Notes under the pieces: model-generated | Database searches by the model: none | What the model saw: only the letters and a program-made list of their open reading frames with translations | What the model was told of the DNA's origin: nothing | Shown: piece after piece, positions 7,648-51,128 of the stretch | Layout of the letters: the number at the start of each line of letters is the position of its first letter | Position numbering within the stretch: position 1 is the first letter of the stretch | Assembly: GCA_018223105.1 (NCBI GenBank) | Contig: JAAEYY010000007.1 | Span: 8,263-59,754, forward strand | Reading direction: 5' to 3' | DNA: 51,492 nucleotides | From: a bacterium | GTDB taxonomy: Bacteria > Bacteroidota > Bacteroidia > NS11-12g > UBA9320 | Position numbers and translations under genes: made by a program

Positions 7648-7677
7648 TAAAAAAAGCCCGAGAGAAATCCCGGGCTT
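7648..7677 (-). terminator. Terminator of lpdA
   Basis: On the minus strand, AAGCCCG pairs with CGGGCTT and is followed by a run of seven Ts. It lies 24 nt beyond the lpdA stop. Its stem sequence AAGCCCG/CGGGCTT is the same as in the facing plus-strand terminator at 7613. Confidence 0.85.
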
Positions 7678-7700
7678 AATCTATATAGCGTGTATTATTC

Positions 7701-9086
7701 TTATAAGTGAATTACTTCGTCATAAGCTGCGGCACAAGCTTCCATTACAGCTTCACTCATTGTTGGGTGAGGGTGAACCGTTTTTATGATTTCGTGTCCG
7801 GTAGTCTCTAGTTTCCTAGCTGCAACTACTTCGGCAATCATTTCAGTAACATTCGCTCCGATCATGTGTGCTCCAAGCCATTCACCGTATTTTGCATCAA
7901 AAATCACTTTAACAAAACCATCTGAGGCCCCTGCTGCTTTTGCTTTACCACTAGCCGAGAATGGGAATTTGCCCACCTTAACTTCGTAACCGGCTTCTTT
8001 TGCTTTTTCTTCGGTATAACCAACTGAAGCAATTTCGGGCCAGCAATAAGTACAACCGGGAATATTATTGTAATCCAAAGGTTCCGGGTTTTCTCCGGCG
8101 ATCTTCTCAACACAAATAATTCCTTCAGCAGAAGCTACGTGAGCTAATGCCGGACCGTGAACTATATCGCCAATGGCGTAAACACCATCTACATTCGTTT
8201 TGTAATAATCATCCACTGAAACTTTACCTTTTTCAGTTTTTATTCCAAGCTTTTCAAGACCGATATTCTCAAGGTTAGTTTGGATTCCAACTGCAGAAAG
8301 TACGATGTCGCACTCTATCGTTTCTTCTCCTTTAGCGGTCTTTACTTTTACCTTGCATCCTTTTCCTGAAGTGTCCACAGATTCTACGCTGCTTCCGGTC
8401 ATGATATTCATGCCTTTTTTCTTGTAGATTTTCTCTAGTGTTTTAGAAACATCTGGATCTTCATTCGGTACAATGTTCGGAAGGTATTCCACAATAGTTA
8501 CATCAGTTCCCATTGCTTGATAGAAATATGCGAACTCAATTCCGATAGCTCCCGAACCTACTACTACCATTTTCTTTGGTAGCTCAGGTAAAACCATAGC
8601 ATCGTGATAACCCACAATTTTCTTTCCATCCAATTTTAAGTTTGGAAGTTCTCTTTCTCTCGCTCCTGTAGCTAGAATGATATTTTTAGCAGAATGAGAT
8701 TCTTTCTTGCCATCCAGTTCAACCTGAACTTGACCTTTAGCAATCAAAGTACCATATCCTTTTAGTACTTCAATTTTATTTTTCTTCATCAGGAATTGAA
8801 TACCTTTACTCATTCCTTCTGCAACTCCTCTGCTTCGTTTTACAACGGCACTGAAATCTGCACTCGCATCTTTCACTTTAATACCATAGTCTTCTGCATG
8901 GTTGATATATTCAAAGACCTGTGCTGATTTAAGCAAAGCCTTGGTTGGAATACAGCCCCAGTTGAGACAAACTCCACCTAATTCAGCCTTTTCTACAACG
9001 GCAGTTTTTAGGCCTAGTTGTGATGCTCTAATTGCGGCTACATAGCCACCTGGTCCTGATCCGATTACAATTAAGTCAAAATTCAT
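7701..9086 (-). CDS. lpdA: Dihydrolipoyl dehydrogenase (E3)
   Basis: This FAD enzyme reoxidises dihydrolipoyl groups of 2-oxoacid dehydrogenase complexes and the glycine cleavage system, passing electrons to NAD+. The 461 residues include the FAD-binding GSGPGG (9-14) and the redox disulfide GGVCLNWGCIPTK (C40 and C45). A second dinucleotide motif VVVGSGAIGIEFA sits at about 173-185, followed by the second FAD motif YAIGDIV, and the catalytic HPHPTMSEA near the C-terminus. The length is normal. It stands alone between two terminators and is not linked to E1/E2 genes here. Confidence 0.97.
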   Translation of the reverse strand: MNFDLIVIGSGPGGYVAAIRASQLGLKTAVVEKAELGGVCLNWGCIPTKALLKSAQVFEYINHAEDYGIKVKDASADFSAVVKRSRGVAEGMSKGIQFLMKKNKIEVLKGYGTLIAKGQVQVELDGKKESHSAKNIILATGARERELPNLKLDGKKIVGYHDAMVLPELPKKMVVVGSGAIGIEFAYFYQAMGTDVTIVEYLPNIVPNEDPDVSKTLEKIYKKKGMNIMTGSSVESVDTSGKGCKVKVKTAKGEETIECDIVLSAVGIQTNLENIGLEKLGIKTEKGKVSVDDYYKTNVDGVYAIGDIVHGPALAHVASAEGIICVEKIAGENPEPLDYNNIPGCTYCWPEIASVGYTEEKAKEAGYEVKVGKFPFSASGKAKAAGASDGFVKVIFDAKYGEWLGAHMIGANVTEMIAEVVAARKLETTGHEIIKTVHPHPTMSEAVMEACAAAYDEVIHL

Positions 9087-34589: not shown

Positions 34590-36716
34590 ATGAAATTTTG
34601 GATCCCCTTACTTTGTATTTTTATCTTTTATTCCGGTTTTGCGCATGCTCAATATGTCGCACCACAACATTCAAAAGGCACTTGCCTAGATTACTCGGAT
34701 CCAAATAAACCCGGTACCGCAGATCTTACTCGATTCTATATTTATGACGCCGCTTATCACTTAGTTTATCATTCAGAATTAAGTAATCAAGACTGCGCAA
34801 CTGCTACTGAAGATAGTTTTTACACTTATCTCGATGACGCTCCTTGTTACCTCAGTGCCGGAAGTGATTACTACATCGTGCTCGAACTTGATAATGAACT
34901 CGATCTTCGAAAAACGGCTTACCCGGGAATATGGGTAGATTTTGATAGAGATAGTACTTTCGGTTCCAATGAATTTCTCATTCCAGCAGGTGCCAAAGGT
35001 GAAATAAGTACAGAATGGGAACGGGCTTTTCATTTTACTGTGCCGGATTCTGTTGAAACCGGCTCAAGCAGAATGAGAATAAGGTCTTCTGTTGGCTATA
35101 TCGATTCAAATTCTGCAAACACAACACTGATTTTCGGAGAAAGTATAGACCTAGAAGTCAATTTATTCGGGGGTAAGGATGTTTCCCTCGATTTCCAATT
35201 GCGCGATACGGGATTTCTGTACAGTTATATTGATGCGCTCAACGCCAATCCCAATTTTGATTATCGATACTTTTGGTATTTAGACGGAGTTTTTCATGAT
35301 TCTACTGCCAGTTTTACATTTAGGTCGTTTGTTACAGGAGATTTAGAGGTGAAGTTAATTGCAATAGATTCAAATGGGCTCAAAGATTCAGTTTTAAAGT
35401 CGATTTATATAAGAACCCCAAATAAGGAAAGTGAAAATCTATTTACTACGAGCAGAAGGAAAGTTCCACTTTACGAGACCTTTGATCTCATCGATTTGAG
35501 CCCATCTTCTCAAGGCTCGCAATGGAAATTGATCAAAGGTGAAGATATCTTGATCGGACCTTACTCAGAATACATCAAGGGAGGCTATCGAAACATTTCA
35601 ATTTATACCGGACTGGGTCCCGGATTTTTTACTGAACCGGGTTCTTGGGAGGTGTGCCTCCGTACGGCTAATTCATACCAGACCGATACACCTTGGACTT
35701 GTAAAAAAGACTATATCCAAGTTGAAGGGGATAGTGCAAAACCTTACGTAGAGCTAGTTGGTTCAGATACGATTTATCTCACCTACGGTGATATGTTTAT
35801 TAGTCAAGGTGCCATTGGCCGAGATTACTGCGATGGAGATATTACGACACAAAATTGGGTATGGACCGATTTTGTTCAGGATAGTATCGATTGTTTTAAA
35901 GAAATCTGGCTCACAGTAGATAATTCAGTAAACATCTCAGATTCGGTGATTAGAACTATTTGTGTCGGACCGGATACAACATCACCAGTTCTGACCCTAG
36001 CCGGGCAGGATACCATGTATGTCGAAGTCGATCATGCTTGGACGGATCCCGGAGCTACTGCCTTTGACAATCTAGATGGAAATTTAGATCAGGAAATCAC
36101 GGTTACCGGTGTGGTTGATACTTCAACTCTTGGCTATTATAATTTGCTATATGAAGTTTATGATAGCTTCGGAAATTACGCATCAGCTATTCGAGTTGTG
36201 ATTGTGGGCGATACTACCTCACCCCAGATTCAAGCGGCAAATGGAGATACTGTCCTCCTCGAACGTGGTGATGTTTTTGAGGTGATTGATCATGTTTCAC
36301 TTTCTGATAATTATACTTCTGACGATTACTTGGAGCAAAACTTCATTGTTATTAATAACGATGTAGACACATCAACAATTGGGTTTTATGAAGTGCAAAT
36401 GATAGTGCAAGATTCAGTAGGCAATTGGAGTGATACTTTAACTCTAATTGTGCAAGTAAGAGAGCCTGCTTCTATTTTGAATATTCGCTCTTATATCTCC
36501 ATTTATCCATCTCCTACACGAGATTTTATCACCATAGAGAAATTGGGATTGAATGAGCGTAATAGCTTCGAAATAGTAAACTCTTTAGGTGAAAGAGTAC
36601 AATCAGGTGAACTAAATCAGACCAGGACAAGAATAGATCTCAGGGCATTATCCCCCGGCATTTATTTTGTGAAATTAGATGGGGTGGAAGGGGTGCTTCG
36701 AATAGTAGTATTATAA
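34590..36716 (+). CDS. T9SS-secreted protein with GEVED and Ig-like (DUF5011) domains
   Basis: The 708-residue protein has a signal peptide (MKFWIPLLCIFIFYSGFAHAQ). At about 110-165 is a GEVED-like domain (AYPGIWVDFDRDSTFGSNEF, then AFHFTVPDSVETGSSRMRIR). After a PKD-like stretch (FRSFVTGDLEVKLIAIDSNG) there are two or three DUF5011-type Ig-like domains (SPVLTLAGQDTMYVEVDHAW, GNYASAIRVVIV, then SPQIQAANGDTVLLERGDVF) that hold Ca2+-like Asp repeats. The sorting tail is ISIYPSPTRDFITIEKLG...GIYFVKLDGVEGVLRIVVL. Surface-exposed or released adhesin or shell protein (inference). It is an isolated gene. Confidence 0.85.
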   Translation: MKFWIPLLCIFIFYSGFAHAQYVAPQHSKGTCLDYSDPNKPGTADLTRFYIYDAAYHLVYHSELSNQDCATATEDSFYTYLDDAPCYLSAGSDYYIVLELDNELDLRKTAYPGIWVDFDRDSTFGSNEFLIPAGAKGEISTEWERAFHFTVPDSVETGSSRMRIRSSVGYIDSNSANTTLIFGESIDLEVNLFGGKDVSLDFQLRDTGFLYSYIDALNANPNFDYRYFWYLDGVFHDSTASFTFRSFVTGDLEVKLIAIDSNGLKDSVLKSIYIRTPNKESENLFTTSRRKVPLYETFDLIDLSPSSQGSQWKLIKGEDILIGPYSEYIKGGYRNISIYTGLGPGFFTEPGSWEVCLRTANSYQTDTPWTCKKDYIQVEGDSAKPYVELVGSDTIYLTYGDMFISQGAIGRDYCDGDITTQNWVWTDFVQDSIDCFKEIWLTVDNSVNISDSVIRTICVGPDTTSPVLTLAGQDTMYVEVDHAWTDPGATAFDNLDGNLDQEITVTGVVDTSTLGYYNLLYEVYDSFGNYASAIRVVIVGDTTSPQIQAANGDTVLLERGDVFEVIDHVSLSDNYTSDDYLEQNFIVINNDVDTSTIGFYEVQMIVQDSVGNWSDTLTLIVQVREPASILNIRSYISIYPSPTRDFITIEKLGLNERNSFEIVNSLGERVQSGELNQTRTRIDLRALSPGIYFVKLDGVEGVLRIVVL

Positions 36717-38430: not shown

Positions 38431-40452
38431 CTAAAGATTTGCGAGCATTTCCTTGGCTTCTGAAAGTGTGACTAACTTATACTCGGCTTGCACGGGGTTG
38501 TGATCTTCTTTTGAGACAAAATCCTTGATACAAATTTTAGGTTTGCCATCTTCTACTGCCATAAAGATTGCTTTTGCTTCAGTATTTCTGGGGATGCTTG
38601 TTATTTCATAGTTGGCATTGAGCAGACTTTTAAATTTTTTAATATAGAGCATCATCCTGGCTGCTATAACTGAACTTAGCGTAACTGAAACCATTCTGCT
38701 TCGATCAACCTTAGAAAATCTATCACAGTTAATCCAGCCTAAATTTGGAGTGGTTGCTTGAAAGAAGCCAAATGCAGCATTGCTAGGATTGTCTTTTGAC
38801 ATTTTAGTCTCAACCGCAGCTTTAATCATATCTTGAATTTCGCTAGTAGCCATCATATCTTTGAAAAGCTTATTATATCTAATGTCAACTACCTTCTGCG
38901 TGTAGAGCTGTTCTGAATAACCATATTTGACAAGTTTATGAGGGAGGAAACGATCGTGATACAGAAATTTTAATCTGACATCTTCAATGGAATTATTGGC
39001 AAGAAAAGTATAGAGGTTTAATGCTTTGCGCAATTCATCCAACTTATATTTTAAATCGTCTTGTAGCCTGATATTAGCAAATCCTGACAGGAATATCTCC
39101 GGGTTATAGGTTCTTAAAGACTCATTCTGACTTGCCTTTTTTAATTGAATTATTGATAGATTAAGTCTCTTTTGGTCATATACTTTTTTAATTGAATTGT
39201 ACTTATTAGTTAAAAATTCCAAATGGGTGTTCAATTTCTTTCTTACCTCTTGAGCTTCTTTCATGTAGATTGCATTTAGTCTATTGAACTCTTCTATGTT
39301 CTTTTCATATAGCGACATGCGTCGGTCGTATTCAGCTAATCTTTTTTCATAGCGCTCTAATAACTCTTGATACTTTTCGTCTGCAATACGTTCTTTCCTC
39401 TTATCACTGCTAAGTAGTTTTCCAATTCCATTGAGAACAGTCTCAGGGTCTGGCTTGCGTGGAACATATGGCGCTCGAGGCTTAATGGGTTCATACGGTT
39501 TAACCGGCCAATTTATAGGGATATAGGTATAATAATTAATCTTATACTCTAAATCAGAATTGAAGTATTTATTAAACAGATTAGTATCTAGTTCAATAGG
39601 AACTCCGCCATCTATTGACCGGGGTTCATTAAAACTTACCGAAGTGTTATTCCAGGTTGTGGTGCCGTCAGCCATTTTGTTACCCGTGAATACAGTCATC
39701 CCACTTTCAGTCTCTTTACTGGGTATTCTATAGGTCAAAGCTTTTCCTGGCCTCAACTCTAGCTTACTGCCATTATAAATGGCATCAATTCTCAGCATTC
39801 CCCCCGTAGTTAGCATTTCGCCATGACTCTCAGTGGTAAGTTGATTTATAAAGGATTCACCCGGTGTAACAAACTCTTCTAGCTCAATCTGAACCAAATG
39901 ATTTGGGATAGGATTTCCTTCAGCATCCATAAATGCATCTTTGGGTATGTCGACTTCAATTCCTTCTCTTCCTCTAATGGTGCGATCCTCATCAATCAGA
40001 TTAAAATACTGCACATCTTCTTTTAGATCTTCCAGCACTTCTTCTGCCGAATTATATAAACTGTATGTGATGTGAAGTTCTACTCGCCGATTAAGTTGTT
40101 TGCCCTCATCTGTGCTATTGCTCGCCGCCGGACGGTACTCACCATGGCTGGAAGTTTTTACATTTCTAATCGGGATACCATTACCTTCCAGATAGGCCAG
40201 CACTTCATTTGCTCTGCGCTTTGACAAAGCGATATTATAAGTCTCAGATGCATCGTGATCGGTGTGGGCGGTGAGCCGAATCTCGTGGATTCGGTAATAC
40301 TTGATGTCGTTTACTAAAAGATCAAGTTCCTGTTTACTCTCAGTTCGAAGTTGGTGCTTGTCTACATCGAAATAGACCGTGCTTTTAATACTCTGTTGGC
40401 CAAAAGCCACAGAAGAAAAAGCCAGCAATACAATAAGGTAGATTGTTTTCAT
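38431..40452 (-). CDS. N-terminal OmpA-domain protein, paralogue 1
   Basis: The 673-residue protein has a signal peptide (MKTIYLIVLLAFSSVAFGQ). At about 22-130 is an OmpA peptidoglycan-binding domain (STVYFDVDKHQLRTES; LTAHTDHDASETYNIALSKR with the N..LS..RA core), unusual because it is N-terminal. At about 160-280 is a ZU5-like domain (GIEVDIPKDAFMDAEGNPIP, GGMLRIDA). Residues about 300-430 are Pro-rich, then strongly helical and charged (EKRLAEYDRRMSLYEKNIEE). A C-terminal domain ends YKLVTLSEAKEMLANL. It is closely related to the protein at 48975. Its gene diverges from the coiled-coil/AAA operon across 226 nt, and a terminator follows it. Confidence 0.88.
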   Translation of the reverse strand: MKTIYLIVLLAFSSVAFGQQSIKSTVYFDVDKHQLRTESKQELDLLVNDIKYYRIHEIRLTAHTDHDASETYNIALSKRRANEVLAYLEGNGIPIRNVKTSSHGEYRPAASNSTDEGKQLNRRVELHITYSLYNSAEEVLEDLKEDVQYFNLIDEDRTIRGREGIEVDIPKDAFMDAEGNPIPNHLVQIELEEFVTPGESFINQLTTESHGEMLTTGGMLRIDAIYNGSKLELRPGKALTYRIPSKETESGMTVFTGNKMADGTTTWNNTSVSFNEPRSIDGGVPIELDTNLFNKYFNSDLEYKINYYTYIPINWPVKPYEPIKPRAPYVPRKPDPETVLNGIGKLLSSDKRKERIADEKYQELLERYEKRLAEYDRRMSLYEKNIEEFNRLNAIYMKEAQEVRKKLNTHLEFLTNKYNSIKKVYDQKRLNLSIIQLKKASQNESLRTYNPEIFLSGFANIRLQDDLKYKLDELRKALNLYTFLANNSIEDVRLKFLYHDRFLPHKLVKYGYSEQLYTQKVVDIRYNKLFKDMMATSEIQDMIKAAVETKMSKDNPSNAAFGFFQATTPNLGWINCDRFSKVDRSRMVSVTLSSVIAARMMLYIKKFKSLLNANYEITSIPRNTEAKAIFMAVEDGKPKICIKDFVSKEDHNPVQAEYKLVTLSEAKEMLANL

Positions 40453-40533
40453 AAGGCTGTGCTTGGGATTATTTCTAACGCAAGAATAGCGGCCTTTATT
40501 ACATTGAAATGACGAACGGGAATTGGTCTATGT

Positions 40534-40551
40534 GAACCATGGCCATGGTTC
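40534..40551. promoter_or_regulatory. 18-nt perfect palindrome between OmpA gene and the AAA operon
   Basis: GAACCATGGCCATGGTTC is its own reverse complement. It lies in the divergent gap, 82 nt from the OmpA start and 127 nt from the operon start, where an operator could act on both. No other copy was noticed in the window. The binder is unknown. Confidence 0.5.
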
Positions 40552-40641
40552 TATGCTGTAGAAGTTCTATTTTATTCGAGAATTTAATCCGATAAGTAAT
40601 TCAGTTTAAAGCAATTTCCCCCTTTACATCCGATAAAAATA

Positions 40642-40649
40642 TATATTTG
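40642..40649 (+). promoter_or_regulatory. Minus-7 box of the coiled-coil/AAA operon
   Basis: TATATTTG matches TAnnTTTG exactly, 29 nt before the ATG at 40679. The stretch is A/T-rich and lacks a clear TTG at minus-33, so the match is only partial. Confidence 0.45.
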
Positions 40650-40678
40650 ATACCAAACCAAAATTATACCTTACACCT

Positions 40679-42052
40679 ATGTCAGATTCGTTTGATCTTC
40701 TCGACCAATTGGGAGACGAGAAGAAAGTTGAAGAACTAAAAGCTAAAATTGAAAAGAAAAAAAGCTCAGATGTGGTGAGCCGCCTGAACAAGATTGAAGA
40801 GGAAATCGAACGAGCCGCTGCCGACAATAAAGACACAAAAGATATTGTCAGCGGAATTATTGATTCCAATTTCGAAAGTTTAAATGGCGATGTTGAAAGT
40901 ACCGAGGAAGATCTTCAGGAACTTATGCTTCATCTGCGCTCTATGCTCGATAGCTGTGGAGGCGAATTTGCCAAACTTCAAGAGCTGAATGAAGCAGAAA
41001 TAAAACTGGTAGAAGATGCTAAATCTGCTCGTGAGAATGCAGAATTCGCTGCGAAGAAAGCAGAAGGCATGTCCAATGCCTGGAATATCCTTTTCGGTTA
41101 TAAAAACCGCAAAGTAAAAGCGACTAAAGAAGAGTTAGAAGAAATGGTGGCTTCTCTTAAAGCCGCAGAAGAGGAAGCCAATAGAAGATACCGCGATCGT
41201 CTAAAGAATGCAGACATCGGCGAAAGCTTAAACCGTATTATTTCTCAGGTTCAGGGCATGGTCTCAATCGTTGAAGACATGATCCTGGATGTGGAAGAGC
41301 AAATCGTTGCGCTTAAAAATAGAAAAGAGCTGGCTTTTGAGACGAAGGAAAAAGCGTCTCGCATAATGGAAGAGCGTAAGGCAGATGTAGATGCCATTGA
41401 AGGTCAGTTGAAAACTGCAGAAACCGAACTTTCAGAACTTCCAAATAATAGTCCGGAATACACTGCTCAGCAAAAGAAAATAGCTGATCTCAGAGAACAA
41501 CGCGCCGAGTTAAAAGGTAAATACAATGTTGCTTTGGGTATCTTCCAATCAAAAGAGCGCTTTGTAGATCAAATTGTGATTCACCTCGAGGCTCAAACTA
41601 CAACCAAAAACAACTTGAAACAGTTGATTGGTCAGTTGAAGTCCGATACCGAAGAAAGGGTAACCACTTATGAATCAGGTTTACAATTAATTCAATCGGC
41701 TACTGCTCAAGAAGCTGCTTCAATATATGAAGAAGCCGGTGTGAAGACAGATCAGAAAATCACCGAAATTGCAGCTAAGGTATTCGTAGGTTCGGAAAAA
41801 GATCGTATCGAAAGAATCAAGAAACAACCTCAGCGTTTATCCGAATTACACAAAGTTCTTGTGGCTATGGCTGAAGCTACTGCAAAATTCAAGGAGAAAG
41901 ACGCGGAAATTATGGAAGAGCACAGCAAGAAATTTGGTATAGATGTAACTGAAACTTTCTCTTCGGGATATGAAAAGAAAGATGGTGATGCACCTGCAGC
42001 AGATCCGGCGCCGGAGAAGAAAGGAAAAGAGTTGAATGATCTGATGGACTAA
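40679..42052 (+). CDS. Long coiled-coil protein, first gene of the AAA operon
   Basis: The 457-residue protein has no signal peptide or membrane helix and is almost entirely helical and charged. Coiled-coil stretches with heptads run from about 20 to 60, 70-130, 155-185 and 215-290 (for example LNEAEIKLVEDAKSARENAE, KKIADLREQRAELKGKYNVA). The remainder, SLHQ-poor and more regular (VDQIVIHLEAQTTTKNNLKQ, IQSATAQEAASIYEEAGVKT), recalls TelA/toxic-anion-resistance proteins. Similar Bacteroidota proteins are annotated microtubule-binding, a label without mechanistic support. The C-terminal 30 residues are disordered and acidic. The gene heads the operon and is followed by an unknown gene after 13 nt. 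Confidence 0.75.
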   Translation: MSDSFDLLDQLGDEKKVEELKAKIEKKKSSDVVSRLNKIEEEIERAAADNKDTKDIVSGIIDSNFESLNGDVESTEEDLQELMLHLRSMLDSCGGEFAKLQELNEAEIKLVEDAKSARENAEFAAKKAEGMSNAWNILFGYKNRKVKATKEELEEMVASLKAAEEEANRRYRDRLKNADIGESLNRIISQVQGMVSIVEDMILDVEEQIVALKNRKELAFETKEKASRIMEERKADVDAIEGQLKTAETELSELPNNSPEYTAQQKKIADLREQRAELKGKYNVALGIFQSKERFVDQIVIHLEAQTTTKNNLKQLIGQLKSDTEERVTTYESGLQLIQSATAQEAASIYEEAGVKTDQKITEIAAKVFVGSEKDRIERIKKQPQRLSELHKVLVAMAEATAKFKEKDAEIMEEHSKKFGIDVTETFSSGYEKKDGDAPAADPAPEKKGKELNDLMD

Positions 42053-42065
42053 TTGCACATTATCA

Positions 42066-43166
42066 TTGAATAGTTTTGAGATAACAAATCACTTTGGGGA
42101 ATATGATCGCGCTGTTTTAGATGGCGATCAGGCCTATGAGGAATATTTCACGTACTTAAAGAGGGCATTAAATTGCTTGCTTAGTTCATTTTCGGTGCGC
42201 GAGTCTGATCTTCCTCTGGAAATAGAAGTTCTGAAGGATTATTGCGGTAGATTCCTCAATACCATTGAAGCATTTAGGATGAAGTACGCTTTCAGTGATA
42301 ATCAATCTATGTTGATTGATGTGACGGACTCTAGCTTCCCCAATTTTCTAGAGTTTAAGCGACTTACCGATGATATCTTCAAAAAGCACGAAGAACTGAA
42401 AAAGAATCCTTCGGTAGAATCGCTCAAGAAACATGTCCTTGATCATTTGATTAAAAATCACGAAGACCCTAGAACGTTGCTTAAACAATTGAGTAAAGTT
42501 CATTACTTCGACTCCTTAAATCTTTCAAAACTCTTTATGGAATTCACGCCGGGTAAACTGGAATTGATTTCCAAATTGAACGATGAGTATGATTCAAGGC
42601 GATATTTTTATAGCTGGGCTTCCTTCGATTCAGTAACCAACCGACCCTACATTTATTTGGCAGTTTTTGATAATCCTCAAATCGTGGATGACAAAAACGT
42701 GGATATAAAGCGCGAGCCTAATTTTATTGATGCGATTAAGAAACTCACGCACAACACCGCCCCGCTGAATGTAATTGCTTCAGATTTAGACAATGCCTAC
42801 GAGGCCGTTCATCCCAAAATAATAAAACGAATCGATATTGGTCCGCTTTTCGGGATTTACTCCAAAGATGAAAGCACATTTACGCAAATGCTCAAGCAGC
42901 ACTTTACACCGGATGATTTTATTATCACCTACACTACTGAGGTCATTTTTTCTGTAGGAGAAAAGCGCAAACGATCTTTTCTTTCTCAAGGAGAGTTAAG
43001 ACAGGTGTTTTATATTGATGAAAGTAACCGAGAAAGCATGAAACGCATGGTGTCACAGGTAGATAAATACCTCATTACATCACATCGTGTAGTACAATTT
43101 TTAAACGAGAACCACCCGGAGGTGATTAGAGAATTAGCAGCCCCTCCCTATATTTACTTAAGCTAA
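42066..43166 (+). CDS. Unknown cytoplasmic protein of the AAA operon
   Basis: The 366-residue protein starts at TTG 42066, 13 nt after the coiled-coil gene. It has no signal peptide, membrane helix or motif I can name. The first 110 residues look alpha-helical (DQAYEEYFTYLKRALNCLLS, VLKDYCGRFLNTIEAFRMKY). Residues about 180-330 are alpha/beta (YFYSWASFDSVTNRPYIYLAV, IDIGPLFGIYSKDE, FIITYTTEVIFSVGEKRKRS). It ends AAPPYIYLS. The stop overlaps the AAA start by 1 nt (TAATG), so translation is coupled. It may be an adaptor or regulatory subunit of the ATPase (inference). Confidence 0.7.
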   Translation: MNSFEITNHFGEYDRAVLDGDQAYEEYFTYLKRALNCLLSSFSVRESDLPLEIEVLKDYCGRFLNTIEAFRMKYAFSDNQSMLIDVTDSSFPNFLEFKRLTDDIFKKHEELKKNPSVESLKKHVLDHLIKNHEDPRTLLKQLSKVHYFDSLNLSKLFMEFTPGKLELISKLNDEYDSRRYFYSWASFDSVTNRPYIYLAVFDNPQIVDDKNVDIKREPNFIDAIKKLTHNTAPLNVIASDLDNAYEAVHPKIIKRIDIGPLFGIYSKDESTFTQMLKQHFTPDDFIITYTTEVIFSVGEKRKRSFLSQGELRQVFYIDESNRESMKRMVSQVDKYLITSHRVVQFLNENHPEVIRELAAPPYIYLS

Positions 43167-45127
43167 TGGAAAAGAGCGATTTACCCTTATTTCAAATAAA
43201 AGAAGATCAATTAAAGGAGTATAAAGAAGAAATTACGTCCTACCTAAAGCAGGTGAGCTGGGTACCGGCACAACAGCAGAAGTCATCAGAAATAGATCTT
43301 ACCTTTTTGATGAATTCAGGAAAGGCTTTGGATATTAATGCCGAAGATCAATTGTCTATTTTAAAGTCGGCTGTGCGCATTAGCGACGATAGAACCTTGC
43401 TTAGCAATGGCACTATTGCTACGCTTAATGCTGTGAGAAAAGGCTATTGCATTGGGCGACACTTAGCTAAGCTCTACGGAGAATCTTCGGGCTTAGATTT
43501 GCTTCAACAAAAGAACAATGCGGGTACTTTACATCAGTCGGAGTTACCTGAGTTTCACGATAAATCTCAAACCCAATCCGCAGTATTACTTTATGCTGCT
43601 GCGAGTTATGTTTTATTTATTCTACAAGATTATAAAGCTGATGAAACAGCGAGTATAGAGATCCAGTTTTCAGGTGTGCCTGAGCTCAATTTGAGTCGGC
43701 CATCTAAGGCCATTCAATGCAGTTTGTATTACTACGGAGCTTATTTGGACCGAAGCGGGGTGATCAATACCGAGCTTCATTTATTAAAAATCACACAGCT
43801 CTACTTTAATCAGATTGTAGAGAATATTCGCTTTAGAAAAGAGTCTTTTAAGTACCTCGACATTTTCGAAAACAACCACTACAAACTAGAGAAGTCTTCC
43901 TTTGTGGTGAAAGGTTTTGAGAACACGCTTCAGGTCAATACAAAAGGGATCACGTTCAATCCGACTCGGATGGAAGATATCGTGGCGAACAAGGAGGCCA
44001 AGCATCTCTTTAAGCGCTATGCAGAGCGATTGATGTGTTATGATATGGAAGCCCGAAAGAATCCTTTGAATGAGTTGGGTGGTCTACCTTCCATTACCAT
44101 GGCTGATGGAAAACCGGGAACTGGTAAAAGTATGTTGATTGCCGCTACCGCCACTTTGCTTAAAGAACGCTGTGATCATTTGGGATACAATTTCCTCTTT
44201 TGGCCTCTGCCGGAGAATATTGTTTCAACCTACCAAGGTGGAACAGCCGAGCGAGCTATGGAATGGTTTGGTCCTATGCAGGATACCAATAAGATTGTTT
44301 TTGCGCCGATAGACGATGCAGAGAATAACCTGGAAGAGCGAACCAGGCAAGGAGTTTCAGCCGGTGTACGTGAGTTTATTGGGGTCTTTTTAAGAAATAC
44401 CGAAGGCGCATATGCGGTGAATCACGGTAACCGTATGATTAGCCTTTTCACCAATATTCCCGATCAGATTGATAAAGCTGTTTTATCTCGAATTCAAATG
44501 CGAATTTCAATGAACGGTGCTACCAGTAATCACGATTTTATTGATCAGGATTACCTCTGGTGGCAGAAGTATGAGAAGATTGATGATGACTTTGTTAAGG
44601 CAGTATCACCGAAGGGCTATGACTACATGGATGCCCAAAGAGCAGCTTCTTCTCTCTCCGAGTTTAAGCTGGATGAATATAAATTTGAGAATGATCAAGT
44701 AAAATCCATTTTTCATGAAGTAACAAAGCTTCACGATATAAAATCACAAGACTTCTTTGGAACTTTTTACGCTACGATTTTGAAGCAGTATCCCTTTTTC
44801 TCCTCGCGGGATTTAAGGAATATTCAAAAGGCAGTAGATGCAAGAGTGATTGATTTTGACCTTCCCGAAATTTGGTGGGATAAGCCGGATGATTTCTTTT
44901 TTAAGCCTTATGAGGTGAAGTTGAATATGTTGAAGGAGCTCATGAAATCGAATATGGGTCAGGTTACATTTAATGATCTCCGACTTTACGAGGCATTGAA
45001 TTATATTGAAAATGCGATTCGAATAAATGAGACGGGCATCGAGCGTGAAATAAAAGAACAAGCGAAGCGAATTTATATTCAGCAACGCGCATCTAAATTA
45101 GCAGCAGAAGGAAAGATTCATGATTAA
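43166..45127 (+). CDS. AAA+ ATPase with large N-terminal domain
   Basis: The 653-residue protein has about 300 N-terminal residues of unknown type, then one AAA+ module. Walker A is GKPGTGKSM (about 315-323). The pore-loop-like STYQGGTAERAMEWF follows, then Walker B IVFAPIDDAENNLEERTR (about 377-394; DD where DE is usual), sensor 1 SLFTNIPDQIDKAVLSRIQM, with Ser-Arg near the arginine-finger position. The C-terminal part is helical (LRDLRNIQKAVDARVIDFDL region). No protease domain is present. It overlaps the neighbouring gene at 45120 by 8 nt. A remodelling ATPase that serves the neighbouring proteins is the simplest reading (inference). Confidence 0.85.
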   Translation: MEKSDLPLFQIKEDQLKEYKEEITSYLKQVSWVPAQQQKSSEIDLTFLMNSGKALDINAEDQLSILKSAVRISDDRTLLSNGTIATLNAVRKGYCIGRHLAKLYGESSGLDLLQQKNNAGTLHQSELPEFHDKSQTQSAVLLYAAASYVLFILQDYKADETASIEIQFSGVPELNLSRPSKAIQCSLYYYGAYLDRSGVINTELHLLKITQLYFNQIVENIRFRKESFKYLDIFENNHYKLEKSSFVVKGFENTLQVNTKGITFNPTRMEDIVANKEAKHLFKRYAERLMCYDMEARKNPLNELGGLPSITMADGKPGTGKSMLIAATATLLKERCDHLGYNFLFWPLPENIVSTYQGGTAERAMEWFGPMQDTNKIVFAPIDDAENNLEERTRQGVSAGVREFIGVFLRNTEGAYAVNHGNRMISLFTNIPDQIDKAVLSRIQMRISMNGATSNHDFIDQDYLWWQKYEKIDDDFVKAVSPKGYDYMDAQRAASSLSEFKLDEYKFENDQVKSIFHEVTKLHDIKSQDFFGTFYATILKQYPFFSSRDLRNIQKAVDARVIDFDLPEIWWDKPDDFFFKPYEVKLNMLKELMKSNMGQVTFNDLRLYEALNYIENAIRINETGIEREIKEQAKRIYIQQRASKLAAEGKIHD

Positions 45128-46394
45128 ACTGATACAACAGGGTTTGTTTGGAACACATCTGGTTCCGGTGTCGAAACCACTAATGGTGCGACGCTATAAT
45201 GCCTGTTTGGAAGAAATTGGATTGCAGCCCACATCTTTGACTTCCTTTCATATCGATGGTTGGGGATGGAGTCCGGAAATCGCAGAGGAGCAGGATAATC
45301 GCTTTTATATGAGCCATGGTATGGCGAATATTTACGGCATCATCATCACTCCGGAGCAGCGAAACGCTTCGCTTTATTTGCCGTATCACACTTTTGATTG
45401 GGACGTACATAAAATGATTTTTGACCAATATCTCGATCAGATTACAGATCTAACTGCACAATCTGCGGTTTGGTTTGAGTTGGATCAAGATATATCGGCC
45501 TATAGAAATCCCTCGGATTTATTGATGATGGAATTTGTGAAAGTGAGATTTAAGTCGGTAGGCAATTGGATGCAAGCTGCACAGGAGCAAAGGGCATTAA
45601 TCTCAGAATTCAATGCAAATCCAATAGCTTGGATGGACGAGGACTTGAGGCAAAACATCATCAATAGTAGCAGAGAACACGGCGATCTTCGTTTTAGAAA
45701 ATTTGAATTACCTGAGCTCTCCTTGCCGGAGACGGATTGCTTTTACACCGAGGCTTTTAATGGTGCTTTTGTATTTAAAAATAACAATTCGGCCAAACCT
45801 CTTTTGGTCCTGAAAGAAAATAATTCGGAAATTTCAGGTGAGATGGATTTGAGTCATGTAGAGTTTAATCTCAACGATCCAAAGTTGATCACTCATCTTT
45901 ATAACCATAATTATATCAGCGACAGCTTAGAGTATTATTTCGAACATAAGGAGCTGCTTGAATTACAAGTGAAATTTGCCTTTGCTGAAGCGGCTTTTGA
46001 ATTAGATCCTAATCTGGCTTTGGTTCATATGAACGATTCGCAGAAGAAGGGAGTGTTGAATAAGCTCATCGCAAAGAACCTTCTAAAAGATTGGTATTTC
46101 GAGCTGGAAAATTTGAGCTCTAAAATACAGAGAATGAGCCAGCCCATGCCCATGGATGTGAGCGATGACTTACGTAATTTTCTGCTTCATCCCGTGAAAA
46201 ATTTAAAGCGACAAGAGAAAATTGTGGTGTGGCAATTACTTTCTGCACTTAAACCTTATAATCCGATCATTCAATATTTATTTGACAAAAACGCATTTTA
46301 TAATGCCTATAAAACCTGGCCGGAGCGTAAGCAGGATTGGGTGATAAAGGCATTGATAGAAAATAGAAAACTGTTTTATAACTTGGTAGATTAA
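45120..46394 (+). CDS. Unknown protein of the AAA operon
   Basis: The 424-residue protein has no signal peptide or membrane helix. The N-terminal 100 residues are beta-rich (LGLQP-type loop, FHIDGWGWSPEIAEEQDNRF, YHTFDWDVHKMIFDQYLDQI). The middle is acidic and mixed (LPELSLPETDCFYTEAFNGA, FKNNNSAKPLLVLKENNSEI). The last 150 residues are helical (LQVKFAFAEAAFELDPNLAL, IQYLFDKNAFYNAYKTWPER). It looks like a Bacteroidota-specific conserved protein, but I cannot give a family. It overlaps the ATPase by 8 nt and ends 1 nt before the next gene, so it belongs to the same coupled unit. Function unknown. Confidence 0.7.
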   Translation: MIKLIQQGLFGTHLVPVSKPLMVRRYNACLEEIGLQPTSLTSFHIDGWGWSPEIAEEQDNRFYMSHGMANIYGIIITPEQRNASLYLPYHTFDWDVHKMIFDQYLDQITDLTAQSAVWFELDQDISAYRNPSDLLMMEFVKVRFKSVGNWMQAAQEQRALISEFNANPIAWMDEDLRQNIINSSREHGDLRFRKFELPELSLPETDCFYTEAFNGAFVFKNNNSAKPLLVLKENNSEISGEMDLSHVEFNLNDPKLITHLYNHNYISDSLEYYFEHKELLELQVKFAFAEAAFELDPNLALVHMNDSQKKGVLNKLIAKNLLKDWYFELENLSSKIQRMSQPMPMDVSDDLRNFLLHPVKNLKRQEKIVVWQLLSALKPYNPIIQYLFDKNAFYNAYKTWPERKQDWVIKALIENRKLFYNLVD

Positions 46395-46395
46395 T

Positions 46396-46944
46396 ATGGA
46401 TTCTCTCATCGCACTCATCATTGGTTTCGGAATCGGATTTGGATTCTATTATTTCGATTTAAAGAAGGGCTTCAGTTCCTATCGAAAGTGGTATAAACTC
46501 ACACATAAAGATCCATTGCCCGCCGAATCCAATAAAGGTTGGGTTTTTAACCAACCTTTTTCAGCACGATTAAGCATGGCCTTGGTGCTTTCGCTTGTAT
46601 TAGCTGTGATTTTATTCTTTACCGGCAATCTTAATTTGATCATGATTCTGGTATATGCCGCAGTAGTTTTAGTGGGATGCTTGGTGGCTTTTTATTTGAG
46701 TCCATATCTGTTTAATAAGGTGCCCGGACATTTAGAAAAGATCTCTAAAGCGATTGAAAAGGTGGATGAAATTGAGGAGCGCTTGAAGAAAGAAGAAACC
46801 GCCTCAGAAACTGCGATAAAAGAAGAAGCCAAAGCGAAAAGCGAAATAGAAGAACCGGAAACGAAGGAAGAAGATCAGCCGGAGAAAAAGAAGGATGATA
46901 AAGACGATTGGAGAAGTGGAGTTAAAGACTTTTTAGATAAATAA
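46396..46944 (+). CDS. Small membrane protein with charged cytoplasmic tail
   Basis: The 182-residue protein has an N-terminal helix (SLIALIIGFGIGFGFYYFDL), a loop with a KGFSSYRKWYKLTHKDPLP stretch, then two helices (SMALVLSLVLAVILFFTG and LIMILVYAAVVLVGCLVAFY). From about 110 it is a long, highly charged tail (HLEKISKAIEKVDEIEERLK onward; strings of E and K to the end). It is probably an inner-membrane protein that exposes the coiled-coil tail to the cytoplasm. It starts 1 nt after the previous stop and overlaps the last gene by 1 nt (TAATG). It may dock cytoplasmic members of the operon at the membrane (inference). Confidence 0.75.
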   Translation: MDSLIALIIGFGIGFGFYYFDLKKGFSSYRKWYKLTHKDPLPAESNKGWVFNQPFSARLSMALVLSLVLAVILFFTGNLNLIMILVYAAVVLVGCLVAFYLSPYLFNKVPGHLEKISKAIEKVDEIEERLKKEETASETAIKEEAKAKSEIEEPETKEEDQPEKKKDDKDDWRSGVKDFLDK

Positions 46945-48527
46945 TGGAAGAGCAAGAAGTAAAACGAAGTAGATCTTATTGGTTTTTTAACAATATAGGA
47001 TCGGGTCTAAGAAATAGGCTTACCGGATTTTTCAAGAAGCACCCCGTATGGGCCATTTTGATCCTCTTGATTTTACTCTATACCTTATTTGTGAGTAGAG
47101 CAGGATTACAGCCTTTTGTGCTCATCGCTCGAAAGTATATTTTACTGGTTGCGATAGTCTTGTTTGTGTTCTGGCGATACATTCGGAAACTGAAGAAAAG
47201 CACGTGGAAACAAAGCATCGTACCCACCTTGCTTTTTGTCGGTTTGCTCGCTGTTTCGTTCTTTTTTGGACCACCGGTATATCGGTATGTCAGTCTTTAT
47301 TTTCACTATAATCAGGTGAAGAAGGTTCGCATTGTGGATTTACCCGAAAGTGATTTCGAGCGGATCCAACCTGTTCATTCAATTCGAACCTTGATCAATC
47401 AAGAAGCACTTTCTGAAACCGAAGATGCTACACCACCCAAGTTTGTAAGAAATGTAGAGGGCGGCTATGATTTTGTTTCAGCTGTTGGACCCTCGAGAGA
47501 ATATAAAATTCAGCAATTGTCTAAGGATATGTATGAGATTTTACATGTGCCTGCACTTTTACCTTCCCCGGTATTTTCGGGTCGACAAAGAGATGATGTT
47601 GAATTTGAAGTAGGGGAGTTACTCTTGTTCAGTAAGAATACCGATATCGCTGTGATCAAGTCCTTTGGCTTGCTCAAATATTTGAGTTACGAGCCCGGAG
47701 AGCCGGTGTATATCGAGAAAGAAAAAGGAAATTGGGTGCAAGTGGTTCCCTTGATAAAGTGGAAGGGGATATTGTTCCCTCGACCGGTATTTGGAGGTGT
47801 GGTTGAGATTGAACAGAAATCAGAGGAGGACTCTTATATCATGCGTGTTTTACTGGGGAAAGGTAAGTATATCCAACCCAATGGAATTCAGAATTACGAT
47901 TATCTCAGAGGGCAAAATTTGATGCCCGTTAAGGTGGCGGATTTTATTGCTGAAAGTTTCCGTTTTGCCAATGGCTTTTTTGCGCCATTTCCGGGTTATC
48001 ATGAAGGAGATATTAGAATCCCTTCTTATAAAGATGCCCATAAAGCACAGCCTTTTGTGGTCCATTTTAAAATGAAAGACCGTGAACAGTTGTTTAATTA
48101 CTATGGCTTGGAACCCTATCAGGAAAGCAAGAAAGGCTTGAGTTTGAGTTTATTGATCCCGGGAGATTCGGATGCTGAAGTGTATTATGTAGATCATAGA
48201 GAAGGGGAGGATTCGTATATTGGTAGTTCTGCTATCTCAGCCAAGATTATTGAAAGCAAAAAGAACTACGATTGGGATAAGAATTATCCTGCAGAATCAA
48301 GACCATATGTCCGCAAGATCGACGGCAAAATACGCTTCTTTTGGTTGAGTACCATTGTAACTCGCGCCGGAGAAGGCGAATCTGATTACATCAGCGGCAG
48401 CATTCCCGAAATCTGTTTAACCGATGCCGTTTATGGCAAAGTGGTTTGGATTGATCAAGACTCCCTCACCGATTCAAAATCCTGGATGCGCGAAGCAGAG
48501 AGAGAGTTGAAGGGATACTGGGAATAA
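46944..48527 (+). CDS. Large membrane-anchored protein, last gene of the AAA operon
   Basis: The 527-residue protein begins with a basic cytoplasmic stretch (KRSRSYWFFNNIGSGLRNRL) and about three helices (PVWAILILLILLYTLFVSR, ILLVAIVLFVFWRYIR, IVPTLLFVGLLAVSFFFGP). A large domain from about 115 follows (VEGGYDFVSAVGPSREYKIQ, LLFSKNTDIAVIKSFGLLKY, FVVHFKMKDREQLFNYYGLE). That part has repeated beta strands and WxxxV-type positions but no known motif. If the helices orient as expected, the large domain is outside the cytoplasm, where it could meet the cell wall or the OmpA proteins (inference). A long stem-loop overlaps the stop codon. Confidence 0.75.
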   Translation: MEEQEVKRSRSYWFFNNIGSGLRNRLTGFFKKHPVWAILILLILLYTLFVSRAGLQPFVLIARKYILLVAIVLFVFWRYIRKLKKSTWKQSIVPTLLFVGLLAVSFFFGPPVYRYVSLYFHYNQVKKVRIVDLPESDFERIQPVHSIRTLINQEALSETEDATPPKFVRNVEGGYDFVSAVGPSREYKIQQLSKDMYEILHVPALLPSPVFSGRQRDDVEFEVGELLLFSKNTDIAVIKSFGLLKYLSYEPGEPVYIEKEKGNWVQVVPLIKWKGILFPRPVFGGVVEIEQKSEEDSYIMRVLLGKGKYIQPNGIQNYDYLRGQNLMPVKVADFIAESFRFANGFFAPFPGYHEGDIRIPSYKDAHKAQPFVVHFKMKDREQLFNYYGLEPYQESKKGLSLSLLIPGDSDAEVYYVDHREGEDSYIGSSAISAKIIESKKNYDWDKNYPAESRPYVRKIDGKIRFFWLSTIVTRAGEGESDYISGSIPEICLTDAVYGKVVWIDQDSLTDSKSWMREAERELKGYWE

Positions 48528-48565
48528 GTACACCGAACCCCTTAGCCAAGGGATTCGGTGTACTT
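48526..48565. terminator. Long stem-loop overlapping the operon stop codon
   Basis: AAGTACACCGAA (48526-48537) pairs perfectly with TTCGGTGTACTT (48554-48565), and CCCTT pairs with AAGGG within, closing a 4-nt loop (AGCC). The stem starts inside the TAA. No strong T run follows, so it may stabilise the mRNA end or act as a weak terminator. Confidence 0.75.
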
Positions 48566-48576
48566 AGGATACAGTT

Positions 48577-48910
48577 TGAGTTCTACTTGGCTGAAGCTAC
48601 GTAGAATGTGGATTCACCGTCGCTGACTGCAGATTCTCTAAGTCTCCATTCTCTGCGAGACAATTATTTGCATTGTTAGAGCTGATGGCGCCAGAATAAA
48701 TAGAAAGTGTTATAAATAGCTCCACCTACGCTGAAGCTATGGTGGATGTAGGTCCTTAGTGGCTTCCACTTCGCTGAAGCTACGCAGAATATTGATTTGC
48801 TTTTGCGTTACATAAACACTCTGTGTTACCCTTTCTCTGTGAGCCAATAATTAGCTTTATGAGATCTCAAGGCGCCAGAATAAACAGAAAGTGTTATACA
48901 TGGCCCTTAG
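48577..48910. repeat. Two degenerate direct repeats of about 184 nt
   Basis: Copy A (GCTGAAGCTACG at 48590; GGCGCCAGAATAAA at 48687) and copy B (same words at 48773 and 48871) are 183-184 nt apart. Both share G-CTGAAGCTACG-x-AGAAT near one end and GGCGCCAGAATAAA-AGAAAGTGTTATA near the other; the middles have diverged. A third GCTGAAGCTA occurs near 48730. CTTC-GCT-GAAG forms a short hairpin. This fills most of the 447-nt gap, where I see no gene. Confidence 0.65.
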
Positions 48911-48974
48911 TGTCATAGTGACTTGGTGAGAGATTCCTATACGCCTCAGGCCTCTGCGAGACCCTCGGTCTAAA

Positions 48975-51128
48975 CTACAAATTATCCAACATCTCTTGCG
49001 CTTCTTCCTTGGTAACTGCCATGTATTCTGCGTTTACCGTAGTTTCTTCGTCAATGGTAAGTTCCTGAATGGAGATATGAGGTTTGTTGTCTATGGTGGC
49101 CATGAAAATGGCTTTTACAGTGGTCCCTCTAGGGACTCTAATCTCCTTATTCCCATTAATCAAACTCCTCGATTTTGCCACAAAAACCATGATTTGTGCT
49201 GCGACCAATGATTTTAAATTGATTTTGGGCATGTTGCGATCATTCACTGTTTCATTGATCTTAGCTAAACCTGCAGCAACGCCAAGAACAGGCAGTAGTG
49301 GAGCTGCCCATACTTGATCAACATTGATGTCGCCAAGATTGCTCAAAAATGCCACATTAAAGCGTCTTTTCCTTGCTCCGATTTGAGATCTACTTTCTTG
49401 ATAGTTGGATAGATTACTGTATTTATAGTTCAATTCTACATCAATCCCAATGCGCTGTCTAAGTTTACTTTCTTTGATTTCGTAGTTCATTTTCTGATCT
49501 AGTTCAGAGTAAAGTTCGGTGTTGTTCAAGATAGACTCTAGAATGAAATTGCGTTTAAAGTTCGCCCCGACCTTCTTATAAAAATTCCAGTCAAAACCAA
49601 ACTCCTTCATATCATGCACCCACAACTTTCCCTTGGATGAGAAATACTCTCCAACTTCTTCTACCTTATACATTCGGATATAGGAGTAAAAATCAATTCT
49701 TGAACTTATAGTTTTGAGTAGGGCATGAAGTTCATCTTCAGTCTCAACTCCTGCGTAACGCTCCAAAATGCCTTTGGAGTCGAGTTCCTTATTCTTACTG
49801 TGTTTTAGTAAAGCTCTGTGTTGCAAAATGGCGGTGTTCAAACGCTTTTGATCATAGACTTTACGAAGCTTACTGTATTCCGACTTTAAGTATTCCAAGT
49901 GTTGATCTATTTGCGAAGTAAACCAAGCAGCTTCTTTATCAAATTCAGCTTTATCTTTTAAGTAAACTTCATACTCCCGATCGTATTTTTCTTTTCGAGC
50001 GTCGTAGGTCGATTTTTGCTCTTTGTATTTCTGCATTTGAACCTCATAGAGTTCATCTGCTTTTTGTTCTTTTCTGCGTTGTGAAGTGAAAATATGGCCT
50101 AATCCGGAGGATACTGCTTCGGGATCGGGTCTTGCAGGCTCTTTTGGTTTTGAAGGAGGTACCGGTTTGAAAGGAGCTATTGGAATAGCAAGATCAATGT
50201 CAACGACCTGAGTAGGAGTGTAGCTCGTGTTATGGTCGATATACTTAAAAAACATATTGCTATCTGCCGGTGTGAGTATTTGTAAAGAAGGAAACTGACT
50301 AAAGGATTCACCTGTATTGGTCCAGGTCATCATGCCATCTCCATCGCGATCTCCCGTGTAAACTGTCATGTCGATATCTACTTCATCATTAGGTACTCTA
50401 ACTTCAATGGTTTTTCCGGGACGCAGAACTAATTTCTTTCCGCGAGCATTAGCGTCAATGCGAAGCATACCGCCCGATTTAAGAATTCCTTCAGCAGATT
50501 CGGTGGTTAATTTATTGACGAATGATTCACCCGGTTCTAAGAATTCTTCGAGCTCTATATCCACTTCAGCATTGGGAATCGGATTCCCATCAATATCCAT
50601 AAAAGCATCGGGCGGAACAACCACTTGAACGCCTTCATCTCCAATTAAGAGTGTGGATTTTGAAGGATGTAAGGAGAAGTGCTGTACAGGTTCTTTCATA
50701 TCCTCCAGAACTTCATCTACATCATTGTAAATATCATAAGCAACCGTAATTTCCACTCTTCGGTTGAGTTGTTTTCCTTGAGCGGTACTATTATCGGCAG
50801 CGGAGTCGAGTTCACTGTGCCAGCTTCGGATAGTGCTGTCTGTAAAGATTTTATTTTGAACTAAGTATTGATTTACAGATTCTGCTCTTCGTTTTGAAAG
50901 GTCTGTATTATAATCAACAGATGCATCGTGATCGGTATGCGCAGTGAGTGAAATAATCTCTACATGACTATATTTAACCTCTTGAATAAGAGAGTCTAAT
51001 GTTGCTTTTGCATCGGGTCGAAGAACATCCTTGTCGACATCAAAATAGACTTCTATGGTCTTCGTTTGGACTTGAGCAAATACGAAAGCAGAAAGAAAGC
51101 AAATACAGAGGGTAAAGAGATATTTCAT
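48975..51128 (-). CDS. N-terminal OmpA-domain protein, paralogue 2
   Basis: The 717-residue protein has a signal peptide (MKYLFTLCICFLSAFVFAQ). The parts match paralogue 1: OmpA domain (EVYFDVDKDVLRPDAKATLD; AHTDHDASVDYNTDLSKRRA), ZU5-like domain (GVQVVVPPDAFMDIDGNPIP; LKSGGMLRIDA), a Pro-rich bridge (PPSKPKEPARPDPEAVSSGL), a helical charged stretch (YKEQKSTYDARKEKYDREYE) and a C-terminal domain ending AEYMAVTKEEAQEMLDNL. It is convergent with the AAA operon across 447 nt that hold repeats. OmpA domains bind peptidoglycan, so a cell-wall anchor is likely. The two paralogues bracketing the operon suggest shared function (inference). Confidence 0.88.
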   Translation of the reverse strand: MKYLFTLCICFLSAFVFAQVQTKTIEVYFDVDKDVLRPDAKATLDSLIQEVKYSHVEIISLTAHTDHDASVDYNTDLSKRRAESVNQYLVQNKIFTDSTIRSWHSELDSAADNSTAQGKQLNRRVEITVAYDIYNDVDEVLEDMKEPVQHFSLHPSKSTLLIGDEGVQVVVPPDAFMDIDGNPIPNAEVDIELEEFLEPGESFVNKLTTESAEGILKSGGMLRIDANARGKKLVLRPGKTIEVRVPNDEVDIDMTVYTGDRDGDGMMTWTNTGESFSQFPSLQILTPADSNMFFKYIDHNTSYTPTQVVDIDLAIPIAPFKPVPPSKPKEPARPDPEAVSSGLGHIFTSQRRKEQKADELYEVQMQKYKEQKSTYDARKEKYDREYEVYLKDKAEFDKEAAWFTSQIDQHLEYLKSEYSKLRKVYDQKRLNTAILQHRALLKHSKNKELDSKGILERYAGVETEDELHALLKTISSRIDFYSYIRMYKVEEVGEYFSSKGKLWVHDMKEFGFDWNFYKKVGANFKRNFILESILNNTELYSELDQKMNYEIKESKLRQRIGIDVELNYKYSNLSNYQESRSQIGARKRRFNVAFLSNLGDINVDQVWAAPLLPVLGVAAGLAKINETVNDRNMPKINLKSLVAAQIMVFVAKSRSLINGNKEIRVPRGTTVKAIFMATIDNKPHISIQELTIDEETTVNAEYMAVTKEEAQEMLDNL

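Follow-up and report, generated by a model that had tools for sequence, protein, structure and literature searches.

Which system is encoded by six closely packed genes in a 51,492-nucleotide stretch of a Bacteroidota genome (contig JAAEYY010000007.1; hereafter the window), and do the OmpA genes on both sides belong to it? A sequence-only reading had proposed a candidate undescribed system that combines an AAA+ ATPase, a coiled-coil protein and proteins of the inner membrane. This proposal is borne out by the conserved gene order described below. Searches for described families and defence systems gave no match other than the AAA domain and DUF6638, to which relatives add DUF2333. To judge by these comparisons, it is well supported that genes A to F constitute one conserved, apparently undescribed bacterial system with A-B-C-D as its core.

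Operon layout and boundaries

All six genes (40679-48527) lie on the + strand in the ORF list, with intergenic gaps of 13, -1, -8, 1 and -1 nt from A to F, which agrees with the tight packing reported before. Gene A (40679-42052; 457 aa ORF) encodes a coiled-coil protein and gene B (42066-43166; 366 aa ORF) a soluble protein, whose TTG start is backed by alignment with relatives. They are followed by gene C for the AAA ATPase (43166-45127; 653 aa), gene D for a DUF6638 protein (45120-46394; 424 aa), gene E for a small membrane protein with a charged tail (46396-46944; 182 aa), and gene F for a membrane protein with a predicted periplasmic domain (46944-48527; 527 aa). The combination of a coiled coil, an AAA+ ATPase and membrane proteins seen in the earlier reading was thereby recovered, with a PF00004 match in C and hydropathy for E and F. 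A terminator-like hairpin on the + strand (48525-48566) overlaps the F stop codon at the operon end; this inverted repeat has 19-nt arms that are 95% complementary and reaches -26.8 kcal/mol (z -5.5). Sigma-70 and Bacteroidota promoter patterns were tried as well and gave no match above chance.

Conservation and distribution

A genome-wide scan was made for relatives, and the best 80 of 343 confirmed relatives were used. The order A-B-C-D-E-F on one strand was found in all 73 related loci having all six genes, and order and strand were also kept in the partial loci from other genomes (12/12). The unit proposed from the window held up in this comparison of neighbourhoods, as its genes stay together without scattering, and the conservation of the operon order is far beyond chance. 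B and D adjoin C in every locus examined. By profile comparison, no paralogy was found among the six families. Over 77 loci, the pairwise distances computed for A, B, C, D and F correlate with one another at 0.86-0.98, although plain vertical descent would lead to high correlations as well. The loci belong mostly to Flavobacteriaceae, where 88 of 300 sampled genomes carry the operon, while it is present in 7 of 38 genomes of the window's own family. Flanks are common to many Flavobacteriaceae loci, and an EttA-like family lies near 37 loci, mostly upstream and on the same strand. The six-gene operon also occurs in one Verrucomicrobiales MAG and one Sungiibacteriota (patescibacterial) MAG, with an identity of about 37-43% in C and F.

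The A-B-C-D set was further detected without E and F on replicons of Vibrio and Rhizobiaceae, with E-values of 1e-21 for the A homologue (Vibrio/Rhizobiaceae) and 1e-41 for the Vibrio B homologue. Among 72,556 plasmid records, A, C and D were found in the same ten, and A had one further partial match. In Shinella and S. meliloti (both Rhizobiaceae) and in a 359-kb phage-like contig (locus L168), the A-B-C-D genes are accompanied by one for a DUF2333 membrane protein; at the same site in R. leguminosarum pSK03, A and DUF2333 are the only parts kept. No recognised membrane partner was found in the neighbourhood of the Vibrio loci, and DUF2333 was not found in the Bacteroidota operon. Since hydropathy gives no membrane segment for the window proteins A, B, C and D, and the core lives without E and F in Vibrio, the earlier description as a surface machine is not backed by these data. 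One gene order across several bacterial groups and a phage-like contig makes it unlikely that the operon is decorative, and the operon gives DUF6638, and partly DUF2333, a common context. The Pseudomonas genes PA1766-PA1769, which we had presumed to be a DUF2333 lead, were dropped; the published operon holds an ATP-grasp protein.

The OmpA neighbours

As had been noticed before, paralogous genes for N-terminal OmpA proteins flank the operon, one divergent from A (38431-40452, - strand) and one convergent with F (48975-51128, - strand). In both proteins the OmpA domain directly follows the signal peptide, and they are 38% identical over 724 columns. Their suggested link to the operon did not survive the comparison of loci. 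In 93 of 94 loci longer than 6 kb, no OmpA gene was found beside the operon, and no OmpA cluster appeared among the flanking genes. In the sole exception, locus L155, an OmpA relative lies at a distance of about 5 kb; it is 30% identical over 252 aa and has a different architecture. Moreover, relatives without the operon possess OmpA proteins like both over most of their length, encoded as single genes in other contexts. The bracket is peculiar to this genome; in relatives the six genes remain a unit that the OmpA genes do not accompany, and these two genes are chance neighbours outside the system. An envelope machine in which the operon is tied to peptidoglycan by this pair of OmpA proteins is suggested by their position in this genome, but with these loci against it, we regard it as extremely improbable.

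The AAA ATPase and the coiled coil

Gene C matches PF00004 with an E-value of 6e-9 in the window and 5e-13 in Vibrio. Walker A, the substrate-gripping pore-loop aromatic Y/F356, sensor-1 N430 and, in the second region of homology, the Arg fingers R442 and R446 are kept in 94 of 94 relatives. However, the second acidic residue of Walker B, usually the catalytic Glu, is Asp (Asp384) in all 94, so that hydrolysis by C could be slow, or C could act as a switch. Despite this Asp, C is placed by its sequence among the classic AAA ATPases because of the profile match and the remaining features. It carries its own N-terminal domain of about 290 aa, for which no MIT match was found in Pfam. The nearest solved sequences are TRIP13/Pch2, the best PDB match (E 8e-4), and Vps4, to which the sequence similarity is weak.

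The model of A is nearly all helix without a membrane segment, although it is a weak model (pLDDT 69, pTM 0.46). The window protein has FDLL near its N-terminus and a disordered tail that ends in NDLM. Among the relatives, the N-terminal FDLL is found in 81 of 90 and a terminal DL[LM/I] in 75 of 90, compared to an average of 0.07 for shuffled tails; both end motifs are absent in the relatives from Proteobacteria, Verrucomicrobiota and Sungiibacteriota. Fold searches with A returned generic coiled coils only. The best-superposed match among those listed was the RipA N-terminal domain with a target TM of 0.69, which means little at an E-value of 0.24.

The remaining proteins

For B, no match was found in Pfam, PDB sequences or PADLOC. 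D matches PF20343 (DUF6638) with an E-value of 4.6e-42 and 144.8 bits against a gathering cut-off of 27; its best match among PDB sequences (E 0.086) was to unrelated proteins, and no mention of DUF6638 was found in the literature searched. According to hydropathy, E is a predicted inner-membrane protein with a charged cytoplasmic C-terminal tail. The tail ends in a conserved basic motif, DDWRxGvKxF in the window protein and SARxRLKDKG in Flavobacteriaceae, which is present in 55 of 82 sequences. F has three N-terminal membrane segments by hydropathy and, from the positive-inside rule, a domain of about 400 aa that is predicted to lie in the periplasm. Its AlphaFold model reached a pLDDT of 87 and a pTM of 0.86. 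No match to F was found among PDB sequences, and the fold search against the PDB gave none that was convincing; the best matches were discounted because of a TM of about 0.2 and an rmsd of about 16 A. Four of the six families are nameless in the libraries (A, B, E and F), and another one, D, is a DUF.

Proposed mechanism and alternatives

Gene order and motifs suggest that A is the substrate of C. In our preferred reading, to which we assign a probability of roughly 40%, C takes apart assemblies of A by threading. A would assemble at the inner membrane, where E/F or DUF2333 would anchor it by way of the A and E tails. The hexamer formed by C, with B and D acting as its adaptors or regulators, would grip A and pull it through the pore, and ATP would drive remodelling or dismantling of the A assembly. 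The F domain might have a sensing or active role in the periplasm. Membrane repair, stress tolerance and conflict are candidate outcomes for the cell. More tentatively, A-B-C-D may be the core of a widespread, unnamed ATP-driven remodeller that is joined to differing membrane modules and represents a second bacterial solution of the ESCRT type with unrelated coiled coils. At the same tentative level, these modules could be E/F in Bacteroidota, Verrucomicrobiota and Patescibacteria, and DUF2333 in Proteobacteria and the large phage-like contig.

Cytoplasmic AAA proteins that mature membrane proteins or metalloproteins are well known, and C with the adaptors B and D could likewise be a MoxR-like chaperone that folds, inserts or assembles F (or DUF2333) by ATP, with A as a scaffold instead of a substrate. 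A conserved F (mean column identity of 42%) whose distances follow those of C closely (r 0.98) would fit this. However, C falls with classic AAA proteins (PF00004) and not with MoxR, and service to F as a dedicated client cannot be what the system does in general, since A-B-C-D persists in Vibrio without F or E and elsewhere has the unrelated DUF2333 in their place. We therefore consider this chaperone unlikely. Somewhat less likely still is a conflict or anti-phage system (an anti-host device if on a phage), in which a cytoplasmic ATPase and sensor complex acts with membrane effectors. Its patchy presence in the window's family and in Flavobacteriaceae as well as the spread to plasmids and one large phage-like contig would fit such a role. 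On the other hand, no PADLOC family was found for A, B or D, C matches IetA weakly and in the AAA region only, no nuclease, protease or toxin domain was found, and the shared Flavobacteriaceae flanks point to stable inheritance.

A true bacterial ESCRT, with A as a divergent PspA/Vipp1/ESCRT-III protein and C as its Vps4, appears very improbable. Vps4 is among the nearest solved relatives of C, and A resembles a long hairpin of helices whose tail carries motifs, but the weak similarity of C to Vps4 argues against it. In addition, profile comparison of A with PspA aligned 37 residues at a probability of 6.7%, no Pfam match to PspA_IM30 was found in the operon or in the window's whole genome, and none of PspA, Vipp1 or ESCRT-III was among the 50 fold matches listed for A.

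Comparison with known systems

The proposed logic of A-F resembles that of ESCRT-III/Vps4 (Cdv), although the partner proteins are unrelated. In both, a classic AAA ATPase that bears an aromatic residue in its pore loop stands beside a helical coiled coil with terminal motifs and membrane partners. However, A could not be recognised as ESCRT-III or PspA, no ESCRT counterpart was found for B, D, E or F, and C differs in its own N-domain and the invariant Asp replacing the Walker B Glu. Bacterial Vps4-like ATPases whose Snf7 partner is displaced by unrelated proteins have been described (PMC11237479). PSP envelope-stress operons, including PspA/Snf7-AAA neighbourhoods, likewise combine a coiled coil, an AAA ATPase and membrane proteins (PMC11237479), whereas A-F lacks PspA, PspB and PspC and differs in families A, B, D and F. 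TRIP13/Pch2, which has HORMA substrates and is also found in CBASS, is linked to the operon by the PDB match of C; yet the operon has no HORMA or cyclase protein, and no Pfam HORMA match was found for B or D. The TelA/Ter tellurite resistance cluster is likewise multi-gene and includes a soluble helical protein of similar size, but A as TelA (PF05816) was rejected at an hhalign probability of 0.2% without a Pfam match, and the window's genome has no TelA. DUF2333 proteins are encoded next to this core, as its membrane neighbours, in Rhizobiaceae and the phage-like contig; in contrast, they were not found in the Bacteroidota operon and also occur apart from the core in Pseudomonas (PMC5256989).

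The operon offers a tractable test case for ATPase-driven coiled-coil remodelling in bacteria outside the PspA/ESCRT family. Hosts available in culture include Winogradskyella, Kordia, Polaribacter and Cellulophaga, and the soluble core A-B-C-D could be expressed in E. coli.

Gene set in the window

The six open reading frames lie where the sequence-only reading had placed them, with intergenic gaps of 13, −1, −8, 1 and −1 nt. They comprise gene A for a coiled-coil protein (40679–42052), gene B (42066–43166), gene C for an AAA ATPase (43166–45127), gene D for a DUF6638 protein (45120–46394), and genes E (46396–46944) and F (46944–48527) for membrane proteins. A hairpin with 19-nt arms (48525–48566, −26.8 kcal/mol, z −5.5) overlaps the F stop codon, and the transcription unit therefore probably ends there. 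Library scans named only two families, PF00004 (AAA) in C and PF20343 (DUF6638) in D; A, B, E and F had no significant family over the curated cut-off. Apart from a weak AAA match, PADLOC returned nothing.

Conservation across genomes

In a search of a single protein against 149 genomes of the class, three outside loci were found, all with the same six-gene order (identity to the window 71–74% for A and 62–70% for C). The Flavobacteriaceae were reached via a DUF6638 search, where the order A-B-C-D-E-F recurred with C merely 40–42% identical. Across 84,980 scanned species genomes, 343 relatives of C were confirmed, and the 80 best were retained. The proposed operon held up in related genomes, as order and strand were kept in 73 of 73 six-gene loci fetched and in all 12 partial loci among those fetched. 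Although all gaps were ≤150 nt in just 20 of the 73 and extra genes are inserted in many Flavobacteriaceae loci, the order is intact; gene order thus outlasts tight packing. A strong match was present in 88 of 300 Flavobacteriaceae genomes and in 7 of 38 genomes of the window's own family. The operon is accessory, yet long inherited.

A same-strand NUDIX gene lies within the operon in 29 Flavobacteriaceae loci (domain E 3e-10 in locus L021); where examined, this hydrolase gene sits between C and D (e.g., L021:10902–11489 and L023:11388–11981). In Pseudomonas fluorescens MFE01, a NUDIX gene adjoins duf2333 too (PMC5256989). Insertions within the operon reach 5.7 kb in L050, L067, L087 and other Flavobacteriaceae with gene order intact, and four-helix-bundle, GIY-YIG and further small genes are inserted elsewhere.

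Loci outside Bacteroidota

Two non-Bacteroidota loci, from a Verrucomicrobiales MAG (L036, 810-kb contig) and a Sungiibacteriota MAG (L035), form deep branches of their own; for the latter, a binning error may be involved. A locus labeled Saccharospirillaceae (L028) is probably a misplaced contig or binning error in a public MAG, because its B and C nest within Bacteroidota in the tree.

When plasmid records were searched in translation with C, homologues at 26–29% identity, most near full length, turned up in exactly ten of them, four each from Vibrio and Sinorhizobium and one each from Shinella and Rhizobium. Separate searches with D and with A returned the identical ten, and A gave one additional partial match, on R. 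leguminosarum pSK03. The Vibrio records carry A-B-C-D, with D annotated as DUF6638, and in Rhizobiaceae a DUF2333 membrane protein comes after D; none of these replicons carries F. On pSK03 (L171, 6777–9131), the site that has the full set in S. meliloti retains only DUF2333 and a homologue of A (E 9e-56, 32% identity to the S. meliloti protein), with B-C-D missing. The gene context is shared, a choline transporter and thymidine kinase flanking one end and formate-tetrahydrofolate ligase the other. A may thus form, together with the membrane protein, a portion able to stand alone.

The module also occurs at 730–8214 of the 359-kb IMG/VR contig IMGVR_UViG_3300035698_035310, with DUF2333 (E 8e-91), A, B, three small ORFs, C and D (E 6e-100) on one strand. 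Nearby are a phage-type topoisomerase II subunit, a DNA polymerase exonuclease subunit, an Rz-like spanin and tRNA genes, and the contig is plausibly a large phage. The module was not found on any further viral contig searched.

Proteins and proposed mechanism

The closest solved structures to the C profile were TRIP13/Pch2 (E 8e-4) and Vps4 (E 4e-3). In 94 of 94 relatives of C, including those from Proteobacteria, the Walker A motif GxPGTGK[S/T], Asn430, Arg442 and Arg446 are invariant. The same holds for Walker B Asp383-Asp384, where Asp384 (44315–44317) replaces the usual catalytic Glu. Position 356 is always Tyr or Phe and, going by the Vps4 alignment, would be pore loop 1. Classic AAA proteins with such motifs are hexamers gripping a polypeptide in their pore, and C is therefore predicted to do likewise.

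The model of A is almost entirely helical, with long helices at 180–253 and 259–379 (moderate confidence, pLDDT 69), and its fold matches were generic coiled coils. Profile comparison detected no relation to PspA or TelA. Bacteroidota A proteins carry FDLL near the N-terminus (81 of 90) and DL[LM] closing a disordered tail (75 of 90; 0.07 expected from shuffles); outside that phylum, these end motifs are not conserved. The charged cytoplasmic tail of E finishes in a conserved basic motif. Terminal motifs of this kind typically bind partner proteins, and those of A and E may do so too. F has three membrane segments at its N-terminus, oriented with positive residues facing the cytoplasm, and a domain predicted with good confidence (pLDDT 87) that had no convincing PDB resemblance in the fold search.

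The sequences show the gene set, its order, intact ATPase motifs and an interchangeable membrane partner. As to the substrate of C, its direction of action and cellular role, we infer a best reading in which C would remodel an assembly of A at the inner membrane, driven by ATP, with B and D as putative adaptors for C and either E/F or DUF2333 as candidate membrane partners of the A-B-C-D core. Bacterial PspA/Snf7-AAA neighborhoods follow a related logic, but no such gene set appears in the excerpts of PMC11237479. DUF6638 (PF20343) had no mention in the open-access papers searched.

Flanking genes

The OmpA-domain genes on either side (38431–40452 and 48975–51128, both on the minus strand) are real and paralogous to each other. 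Their suggested link to the operon did not survive comparison: an OmpA relative, a distant one, lay near one of 94 loci over 6 kb. Relatives without the operon have OmpA proteins similar to both window copies over most of their length, as single genes elsewhere. The bracket is a local coincidence. Such single-gene relatives in G467, G469, G499 and G464 (L158–L161; ~25–31% identical) carry the OmpA domain straight behind the signal peptide, and their C-terminal region is long and unusual.

In L014, the operon adjoins relatives (2540–3874 and 6062–6718, 42–43% identical) of two neighboring window genes, which themselves lie at 3859–5844, ~35 kb from the operon here. The non-coding stretch at 48570–48960 is composed of diverged direct repeats; pieces match ten other genome sites at 71–90% identity, which suggests a dispersed repeat family. 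At 34590–36716, a secreted 708-aa protein is encoded, whose C-terminal segment resembles, by eye, a type IX secretion sorting domain.
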